The notes beneath the pieces were generated by a model. That model did no database searches and had not been told where the DNA came from. It saw only the letters and a program-made list of their open reading frames with translations. 64,000 nt of DNA from Pseudomonas putida (GTDB lineage: Bacteria; Pseudomonadota; Gammaproteobacteria; Pseudomonadales; Pseudomonadaceae), in the NCBI RefSeq assembly GCF_005080685.1, contig NZ_CP039371.1, positions 4,278,001 to 4,342,000 of the forward strand, read 5' to 3'. Shown here piece after piece: positions 23,591 through 48,359 of this stretch; positions within the stretch are counted from its first letter, which is position 1; the number at the start of each line of letters is the position of its first letter. Position numbers and translations under genes: made by a program.

Positions 23591-23686
23591 CGCGTGTTTG
23601 AATCTACTGTGTACCACCCACGCCCACACCTCTGAACCCAGTCAAAACCGCTGTTGACGGGCGCTGCGCACCGTTCTATAGATGAA

Positions 23687-23826
23687 CTGCACCGCGCTGT
23701 CGTTGACAGCACCAGGTAGCCGGAACCTGCAAGGCTACGCTCTCTCCAGAGTGGTTCCTCCCAAAGTGCGACTAGCGTTCGGCGGCTCGCACGGTTATCG
23801 CTCCCCGCGATGATGAGCGCTCTTAC
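23687..23826 (+). ncRNA. Candidate structured RNA element, copy A (DUF3577 leader)
   Basis: About 135 nt with four predicted hairpins: GCTGTC/GACAGC (23696-23710), GTAGCC/GGCTAC (23716-23738), CTCT/AGAG (23740-23751), and GCGTTC/GAGCGC (23775-23820) enclosing ATCGC/GCGAT (23797-23811). A second copy at 47748-47885 keeps the same order of stems and the same single-stranded sequences, with compensatory changes in the paired arms. It lies about 97 nt before the DUF3577 start and is probably a cis-regulatory leader. Confidence 0.7.
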
Positions 23827-23916
23827 ACCACTGCTGTTGCACCTGACCTTCCCTTGCGGACTCACCCCCGCCAGGGCCGGTGAATATCCGCGTTTCTCGC
23901 AAACAGGAGATTCACC

Positions 23917-24429
23917 ATGACCTCGGTAAACACTGCTGCCCCCAGTACCTACTTCAACCTGCACACCCAAGGCATTGGTTACTTGAACCGCGTGCGTGAG
24001 GTGCCAGTGCGGCGAGGCCAGCCCTTTATGGCCTGCGACATTGCCGCCTTGCACGGTGCGTCGGATGACGTCGAGTACACCCGCTTCGACTGCAAGGTCG
24101 CTGGCGGTGAAGCCGAACGGCTGATCCGCGAACACCTCGAGGATGTCCGTGCCGAACGCAAGGTGCTGATCGCGTTTCGCATTGGCGACCTCTGGGTCGA
24201 TGCTTTCACCTACGAAAAAGGTGAGCGCAAAGGCCAACCCGGTGCCAGCCTCAAAGGTCGGCTGATCTTCATCGAGTGGATCAAGGTCAACGGTCAGCTC
24301 ACCTACAAAGCGCCAACTCGGCAGGATGCTTCCTCGCCTGATCAGCCGTCCGAAGCGGCTGGTGAGGATGCGCCGGACTCTTCACGCAGTGCCGATCAGG
24401 CTCCGAACCAGGCGACGCAGCCTGCCTGA
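23917..24429 (+). CDS. STY4534-family ICE replication protein (DUF3577)
   Basis: A 170-aa protein of the DUF3577/STY4534 family. Its pattern resembles an OB-fold, SSB-like domain: [18 protein letters not shown], the variable arm, [22 protein letters not shown], and [15 protein letters not shown]. About 40 C-terminal residues are acidic and Ser/Ala/Gln-rich, reminiscent of SSB tails. The ribosome-binding site AGGAG lies 7 bases before the ATG. The gene carries the upstream RNA element copy A, and the identical last bases before the ATG (TCACC) are shared with the DUF3085 gene that carries copy B. Confidence 0.87.
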
Positions 24430-24490
24430 GACTGATGCCCCACCACAGAGGCGCTCACATGAGCGCCTTTTCTCACCCCCAGAGGCTGCT

Positions 24491-24748
24491 ATGGAGAGTT
24501 ACTGGCTCTGTGAGGATTGCCTGCACGCCGTGGCCTACGACGACTTCAGCGCACTGTCGCTGTACTACAGCGAGGCCGAAGTCGATCAGCGAATCGCGCA
24601 GATGCGTAAAGAGCTGCAGGTGCTGTTGCCGCTCAGCGCTGATTTCGATCCGGACACCGGTGTCGGCATCGACCCCTTCTCCACTCACCCCTGCGAAGGC
24701 TGCCACTCCGCGTTGCACGGCACCCGGCATCGTTTCACCCGCCTGTGA
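24491..24748 (+). CDS. Small ICE protein with paired cysteines, 85 aa
   Basis: The function is not known. The N-terminal [15 protein letters not shown] and the C-terminal [16 protein letters not shown] supply two CxxC pairs and several His, suggesting a small zinc-binding fold. Relatives occur at this place in PFGI-1-type ICEs between DUF3577 and RadC genes. The ATG at 24491 is chosen because CCAGAGGCTGCT gives a plausible ribosome-binding site, and upstream frame extensions overlap the DUF3577 gene. Confidence 0.75.
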
Positions 24749-24809
24749 CCGCCTGACCCTACCCACAGGGGCCTCCTCCCGGAGCGCCCCTGCACACGAG
24801 GTTCTGCTC

Positions 24810-25304
24810 ATGAACACGCCATTGACCCTGGTCGAGCCCCTCGACCCCGTCCTGACCCAACGCGCCCACGAAGATGCATTGATCAGCGAAGCCATGCAGT
24901 TGCTGGACCAACGCTACTTTCAGCGCGGCGAAGTGCTGATCACACCTGCCGACGCCGCGTCCTACCTGAAGCTGCGCCTGGCGCCCTATCACCACGAGGT
25001 GTTTGCCCTGCTCTACCTCGATTCACGCCACCGCGTGCTGGACTTCGAGGTGTTGTTTTTCGGCAGCATCGATGGTGCCTCGGTCTACCCCCGTGAAGTG
25101 GTGGTCAAGGCACTGGCACACAACGCCGCAGCGGTCATCCTCAGCCACAACCACCCCTCCGGCTGCCTTGAGCCCAGCGGTGCCGACCGCGTACTGACGA
25201 CCCGCCTGATCGAAGTCTTGGCGCTGGTCGAGGTGCGCGTTCTAGACCACATCATCGTCGGCGAAGGTCAGCCCCTGTCCTTGGCCGAATATGGCTGGAT
25301 CTAA
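24810..25304 (+). CDS. radC: RadC-like JAB/MPN-domain protein
   Basis: A 164-aa short RadC homologue without the N-terminal HhH region of chromosomal RadC, as usual on ICEs. The JAMM metal-binding motif is complete: HNHPSG, then S and D in PSGAD, with an upstream Glu in DFEVLFFG. The family was once called a DNA-repair protein, but its true role is unsettled. It lies in a run of small ICE genes with short gaps (24491-26078) that is probably one transcript ending at the terminator at 26082. Confidence 0.9.
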
Positions 25305-47536: not shown

Positions 47537-47747
47537 TTTCGTACCTCCATTTACTTCACCGCACTTGCGGCCAAACCGCTACAGACAATTTGGATCCAAG
47601 CTTTAGCTTACTCCTCTCCCGAGGATTTCCATGACCGTTGATCATTTGGTTTACGCTGGTCATCGTCAGTGGCACTGCATGGATTGACACAGTGCACCCT
47701 TCTGAAAATAACCATTGACGCTATGCCAACCCGCTTGATAAACCGGA

Positions 47748-47885
47748 CCTGCAAGCGCTGGAATTCCAGCACCCCAGGTGGCCTCAACCTTCAAGGCCAC
47801 GTCACTCCCGTGACGGTTGTCCCAAGGGCGATTAGCGTTCGGTGGCTCGCCCGGTTACCGCCCCCGCGGTGATGAGCGCCCTTTC
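47748..47885 (+). ncRNA. Candidate structured RNA element, copy B (DUF3085 leader)
   Basis: The counterpart of the element at 23687-23826. Its stems are GCTGG/CCAGC (47757-47770), GTGGCC/GGCCAC (47778-47800), GTCAC/GTGAC (47801-47814), and GCGTTC/GAGCGC (47835-47879) enclosing ACCGC/GCGGT (47857-47870). Loop and linker sequences such as TAGCGTTCGG and GGTTA are shared with copy A, while the stem arms change in pairs. It lies about 114 nt before the DUF3085 start. The first 210 bases after DUF3742 (47537-47747) show nothing clear. Confidence 0.7.
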
Positions 47886-47993
47886 ACATCGGCCTCACTG
47901 AGCCCTGCTCCGTTGAAGCTCCTTTTCCATTTCCGTGCTGGGAATTCTTCCCGCATGGGTGGCATTCCTCTGCACTGCCCGGAGGAACTCACC

Positions 47994-48359
47994 ATGTTGC
48001 GCTTCACAGGAACAGAACTTCATGCTGTCTTGACTGAAGCTGCCGTCATCGGCTGCCGAGTCGTCCTGGTCAAAGACCAGGGTGTCTACCTCATGTCCGA
48101 GTTCGGCGAAAACAAACCCGACGGAGGCAGCCGCAAACACATTGCCTACGCCATGGGCTGCAACCCTGACGTCGACGACTTTGACGCCTGGTGGAATCGC
48201 GCACGCAGTGAATTCGGTGGCGACGATTTCGCCGAGTACTTCGACCTTGATGATCCCGTTCTGGAAAGCCTACGCGGCACCGACGGGGCATTGGTGATTG
48301 AGGCCACATCCACACACCTGTACATCGCTGCTGAGATTGCCCTGCCCGGGAAGTCCTGA
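47994..48359 (+). CDS. DUF3085 family protein
   Basis: A 121-aa ICE protein of unknown function (MLRFTGTELHAVLTEAAVIG, GVYLMSEFGENKPDG, DDFAEYFDLDDPVLESL). The ATG at 47994 is preceded by GGAGGAACTCACC, a strong ribosome-binding site. The longer frame would run through the RNA element and is rejected. DUF3085 genes are common ICE and plasmid accessories near antirestriction genes. The shared leader with DUF3577 suggests joint control. Confidence 0.85.
   Translation: MLRFTGTELHAVLTEAAVIGCRVVLVKDQGVYLMSEFGENKPDGGSRKHIAYAMGCNPDVDDFDAWWNRARSEFGGDDFAEYFDLDDPVLESLRGTDGALVIEATSTHLYIAAEIALPGKS

Follow-up and report, generated by a model that had tools for sequence, protein, structure and literature searches.

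In translational riboswitches and protein-binding mRNA leaders, a structured 5' leader is followed by a Shine-Dalgarno hairpin. Among described RNA families, the closest to the one analyzed here is the radC RNA, published in 2010. The radC entry in the table of Weinberg et al. 2010 (PMC2864571) reads 'Y' for RNA, 'y' for cis-reg and '?' for switch, i.e., radC is given as certainly an RNA and probably cis-regulatory, with its riboswitch status left open. CaCoFold 2020 lists radC among the families with extra covarying pairs. A mechanism or later functional work on radC RNA was not found in the open-licence literature, with supplements and most subscription papers lying outside the search. We analyzed a 64,000-nucleotide stretch of the Pseudomonas putida genome (NZ_CP039371.1, positions 4,278,001 to 4,342,000; in the following, the window), in which an earlier note had described an RNA-like element in two copies, A and B, while allowing that it may already be catalogued. 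This caveat was correct, as the element is the radC RNA (Rfam RF01754). In our reading, to which we assign a probability of roughly 0.58, radC RNA is a sensor leader that would answer a common signal and control the translation of replication and DNA-handling genes in integrative and conjugative elements (ICEs) of the PFGI-1 class.

The Rfam covariance search that the note had called for was performed with cmscan. Both copies span the entire RF01754 model (positions 1-149 of 149) and exceed its gathering cut-off of 40 bits, and they lie where the note had placed them:

23684..23820, + strand: copy A radC RNA (cmscan 70.2 bits, and helices)
47740..47879, + strand: copy B radC RNA (cmscan 73.9 bits)

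Helices, covariation and the selected strand

All stems reported in the earlier note are present, namely P1 (GCTGTC/GACAGC in copy A, GCTGG/CCAGC in copy B), P2 (GTAGCC/GGCTAC, GTGGCC/GGCCAC), P3 (CTCT/AGAG, GTCAC/GTGAC) and P6 (ATCGC/GCGAT, ACCGC/GCGGT). The note had overlooked three further helices: X (GTGCGA/TCGCAC in A, GGGCGA/TCGCCC in B), Y (GCGTTC/GAGCGC, identical in both) and Z (GGAACC/GGTTCC in A, CAACC/GGTTG in B).

The compensatory changes in the stem arms turned out to be far above chance. In an alignment of 125 distinct sequences with 45 pairs, 95.1% of cells are paired, and 956 cells carry two-sided changes, compared to 265.6 +/- 18.3 after shuffling (none of 500 shuffles was as high). 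Sliding the alignment reduced pairing to 25-44%. Per helix, pairing amounts to 99.2% (P1), 98.6% (P2), 90.7% (P3), 95.9% (P6), 98.6% (X) and 99.1% (Y); six of the 125 rows are weak, and the helix figures are nearly unchanged without them (119 rows). Y and Z are pseudoknot helices with strong covariation, confirmed in 107 further sequences. Taken together, these comparisons suggest that radC RNA folds as two tandem pseudoknots, one formed by the P2 loop and the strand after P3, the other by X and Y around P6.

The RF01754 structure has P1, P2, P3 and P6 in the same order as both window copies. It differs in that the nested structure reported by cmscan is without X, Y and Z and has a helix 117-119/147-149. 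This helix is incompatible with both X and Y, and 58.6% of its 348 cells are Watson-Crick pairs (81% including G-U). The low Watson-Crick share and the conflict with X and Y argue against this helix, not against membership in the radC family. We claim no priority for the Y and Z pseudoknots, whose absence from the family record was judged on the cmscan nested structure.

Summed over the seven main helices, the ratio of G-U to A-C cells is 221:37 (216:34 without weak rows; 120.5:24.2 when weighted over 67 clusters), and the outer stem, which is outside this sum, gives 27:18. As the opposite strand would read a G-U pair as a C-A mismatch, the sense strand is the selected one. The tolerance of G-U on the sense strand, the covariation and the location in front of genes, at a fixed distance from a promoter-like box (see below), support a cis-acting RNA whose structure is under selection, as the earlier note had argued from two copies.

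Homologues were collected with a covariance model, R1, built from 36 copies. In four scans, which together covered the window and loci from genomes, GTDB contigs and viral contigs, it gave 142, 12, 106 and 25 matches (285 in total), mostly from Pseudomonas. After short and repeated matches were dropped, 239 distinct sites remained, five of them weak.

Promoter-like boxes and the start region

Both copies are preceded by promoter-like boxes, and both leaders contain two predicted hairpins, E1 and E2, between the RNA and the first gene:

23654..23682, + strand: promoter-like boxes of copy A, TTGACG (23654-23659), 17-base spacer, TATAGA (23677-23682), from coordinates and the conserved TTGAC distance
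23851..23876, + strand: hairpin E1 of copy A, by folding
23879..23916, + strand: hairpin E2 of copy A, in which GGTGAAT (23879-23885) pairs to ATTCACC (23910-23916) around the Shine-Dalgarno sequence AGGAG (23905-23909)
47715..47742, + strand: promoter-like boxes of copy B, TTGACG (47715-47720), 16-base spacer, weak GATAAA (47737-47742)
47934..47957, + strand: hairpin E1 of copy B, by folding
47958..47993, + strand: hairpin E2 of copy B, formed between GGTGGCATTCCTC and GAGGAACTCACC, and with the Shine-Dalgarno sequence GGAGG (47981-47985) at the 3' arm

Among the 236 sites with enough upstream DNA, TTGAC begins 16 to 23 bases 5' of the model match in 164, compared to about 1.5 expected from its rate elsewhere upstream. 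A TATAAT-like box follows at 17-base spacing, the best of four spacings tried, in 135 of these 164. This one constant distance lets the RNA appear as if it started at its own 5' edge, where we infer the transcript start. None of the 32 sites in front of the RadC, 270-aa and LPEDVLDQ gene clusters (introduced below) carries the TTGAC box; those inspected by eye seem to lie downstream of a coding region. A strict promoter scan, which required T at the last -10 base, returned nothing at copy A or B, since both -10 boxes end in A.

No terminator-like site was found in 23640-23960 or 47690-48010, other leaders being inspected by eye only and Rho-dependent termination not being searched. The comparisons do not separate the riboswitch, attenuator and protein-binding leader that the note had considered. 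In the window leaders, the missing intrinsic terminator together with a likely Shine-Dalgarno hairpin suggests control at translation. By eye, a terminator-like hairpin (GGCGCTCACATGAGCGCC then TTTTC) lies at 24450-24472, just 3' of the DUF3577 gene, and overlaps the predicted start of a RadC open reading frame at 24435-25304.

The bases that the note had seen shared before both ATG codons are real and general: CACCATG ends 41 of 61 aligned leaders and forms the 3' arm of the start-signal hairpin. For 133 leaders from ten gene clusters (146 cluster sites minus 13 with the start too near or too far or without a Shine-Dalgarno sequence), the predicted probability that the Shine-Dalgarno sequence pairs with upstream sequence exceeded 0.5 in 132 and 0.7 in 120. 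The respective shares for 361 control starts were 56% and 33%; the control starts here and for the fold z-scores were chosen mechanically. The start window gave a fold z-score of -1.77 versus -0.49 for controls. For the window before it, the values were -1.57 versus -0.07, driven by DUF3577, SASFRFG and PNHAASP and less so by the 270-aa cluster. E2 is paired in 87.7% of cells across 61 aligned leaders from five clusters. Overall, we regard the Shine-Dalgarno hairpin as likely.

An alternative pairing, between the 5' arm of E1 and that of E2, is suggestive of a switch. In copy A, TGCGGA on the 5' side of E1 (23855-23860) can pair with TCCGCG in E2 (23887-23892). The two arms pair more stably when taken from one leader than when permuted between clusters (-9.07 versus -7.02 +/- 0.23 kcal/mol, 100 permutations), with 81.5% of cells paired and 49-74% when slid.

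Several observations weigh against a leader that masks and unmasks the start. Sequence composition accounts for much of the Shine-Dalgarno pairing (mean 0.840 for native leaders versus 0.677 with the upstream sequence shuffled), and, taken one at a time, no more than 34 of 127 leaders clearly exceed shuffled upstream sequence. E1 is paired in 69.2% of cells in the same 61 leaders, and its window shows no excess of folding over shuffled sequence in the 92-aa coil, RadC, TQQHGA, DUF3275, DUF3085 and LPEDVLDQ clusters (mean z -0.34 to 0.40). Covariation in E1 and E2 is modest, with 45 two-sided-change cells, yet 36 after a slide of +1, and RNAalifold on the aligned region returned 5 pairs only at -0.8 kcal/mol. 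The alternative pairing is weak in the 92-aa coil and DUF3275 clusters (median -5.2) and still reaches 73.7% when slid by -2. Finally, 79 sites in front of integrase or DUF3987 genes are left uncovered; their median gene distance is about 540 bases, and in the 73 of 79 with a start found the median Shine-Dalgarno pairing is 0.36-0.50, i.e., the start is unmasked.

Downstream genes and distribution

The first genes under the two copies are:

23917..24429, + strand: DUF3577 gene, STY4534 family ICE replication protein, under copy A (PF12101 2e-54, NF040584 4.9e-54)
47994..48359, + strand: DUF3085 gene, under copy B (PF11284 2.1e-23)

The window holds an ICE core of the PFGI-1/TOL class (ParB, STY4528, topoisomerase III, RadC, PilL2, TraD, TraC, TIGR03752 and TIGR03755) and further ICE genes (AcaB, SSB, TraG_N and ArdC_N). 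Across homologues, ten BLAST gene clusters lie downstream in 146 of the 239 sites: DUF3577 (53 sites), a 92-aa (amino acid) coil (25), SASFRFG (19), RadC (15), a 270-aa protein (12), TQQHGA (8), PNHAASP (5), LPEDVLDQ (5), DUF3275 (2) and DUF3085 (2), those without a Pfam name being labelled by length or first residues. Four of the five weak sites are counted under DUF3577 at more than 700 bases and were left out of the start tests. Of the other 93 sites, 79 have a same-strand integrase and/or DUF3987 match in the fetched DNA. The expectation that the element always precedes DUF3577 or DUF3085 was therefore too narrow. Because the RNA is common to ten gene clusters, an autoregulatory leader bound by the product of each gene is unlikely.

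The radC RNA precedes Integrase_1 and/or DUF3987 genes at L232 (own genome, 355000-374900) and at the 79 sites, of which L098, L111, L151 and L215 are examples. A GCGCCC...GGGCGC hairpin often stands between RNA and gene at such sites, and a long GC-rich hairpin pattern occurs near the RNA in 59 of the 93 non-cluster sites.

The earlier note had called the element duplicated in the ICE. For this speaks that the two copies share 70% identity and that A is the nearest neighbour of B in alignment A3. Also in favour, median identity is 0.57 for different genes at one locus (46 pairs), about the same as the 0.58 for one gene at different loci (1206 pairs), with 0.53 for neither. Against it, another DUF3577 leader (73%) resembles copy A more than B does, and neighbours follow the gene cluster: the nearest neighbour shares the downstream cluster in 106 of 122 A3 sites (chance about 0.17), a count that is inflated by near-identical orthologues. 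The evidence on a recent duplication within one ICE points both ways.

The radC RNA is common in the genus of the window, where 165 of the 298 genomes drawn have a match above the cut-off, and rare elsewhere. Under strict filters that miss weak matches, a phylum survey found it in 6 of 398 genomes (two genera, own genome included) and a class survey in 2 of 274, the own genome and one of another family with four copies. Besides A and B, the own genome carries four copies. Three of these stand in tandem within 3 kb near 5.02 Mb (L233 15390-18180, about 5.023-5.026 Mb), and the neighbouring open reading frames resemble pilus and integrase genes by eye. BLAST of window positions 23600-23950 gave no match among plasmids and, among phages, one unannotated record (82.1% over 32% of the query). 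Two IMG/VR contigs (L229 and L230) and phage record MT835634.1, all filed as viral, carry radC RNA or similar DNA and are possibly misfiled islands. In the L200, L193 entry, a full radC match sits in a 4.1-kb contig labelled Streptomyces, possibly a contamination, and a pattern match labelled Gordonia is without a model match.

Readings of the leader and known systems

In the sensor-leader reading, the transcript would begin with the 5' edge of the radC RNA itself, and the two tandem pseudoknots would form the sensor domain of an mRNA leader. E2, just 5' of the start codon, would pair the Shine-Dalgarno sequence and keep translation of the first gene low, until a common signal recognised by the pseudoknotted domain causes a refolding, perhaps via pairing of the E1 and E2 5' arms, that frees (or hides) the Shine-Dalgarno sequence. 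In this way one RNA could set the translation timing of several ICE replication and DNA-handling genes. Of this reading, the comparisons establish the structure, the selected strand, the position of the promoter-like boxes and the set of genes, and they support the Shine-Dalgarno hairpin in part. Such a signal would act in trans and is somewhat likelier to be a protein than a metabolite, since few unpaired bases are strictly conserved. A bolder version can be held only tentatively: the sensor would run an element-wide translational regulon, in which one trans signal frees several Shine-Dalgarno sequences through mutually exclusive E1/E2 pairing, and integrase islands would carry the same sensor to track the state of the ICE.

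If radC RNA were a metabolite riboswitch, the two pseudoknots would be a small-molecule aptamer and E1/E2 its translational expression platform. The compact fold, the leader position, the sequestering hairpin and the possible alternative pairing suit this explanation, as does the status left open by Weinberg et al. 2010 (PMC2864571). We nonetheless consider it unlikely, because only three unpaired columns (CCC) are conserved at 90% or more over the 67 weighted clusters and the recognised downstream genes are non-metabolic. Quite unlikely is a stability or processing element, whose fold would protect or mature the mRNA 5' end with E2 being incidental; the share of Shine-Dalgarno pairing explained by composition and the unmasked starts at integrase-type sites fit it, but start-region structure exceeds that of controls and two pseudoknots in a row look intricate for a purely protective role. 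A single-stranded DNA promoter (Frpo-like), formed by the folded transferred strand and driving early expression in the recipient, would match a known theme of leading regions, the SSB, RadC, ArdC_N and replication genes of the window's ICE and the promoter boxes adjoining the fold, but is very improbable, as it needs the template strand while the G-U/A-C asymmetry favours the sense strand (the outer stem less clearly), and as the TTGAC box is missing from three clusters.

Shared control of ICE genes has been described for the transfer-competence regulon of ICEclc (BisDC/InrR), in which core promoters are switched together (PMC7423338, PMC9286271), and PMC9286271 raises possible post-transcriptional regulation. 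ICEclc differs in the nature of the 27-bp motif shared there, which has been described as a promoter motif. In the accessible parts of both papers, 'untranslated' and 'hairpin' do not occur, nor do 'leader' and 'riboswitch' in that of PMC7423338 or 'DUF3577' and 'secondary structure' in that of PMC9286271. The radC leaders bear on the timing of replication and DNA-handling genes in conjugative elements, and the extra helices, the likely start site and the candidate switch make radC function testable by simple reporter and probing work. Like translational riboswitches and protein-binding leaders, the window leaders combine a structured 5' leader with a predicted Shine-Dalgarno hairpin downstream; unlike them, a single kind of RNA is used by ten gene clusters or more.
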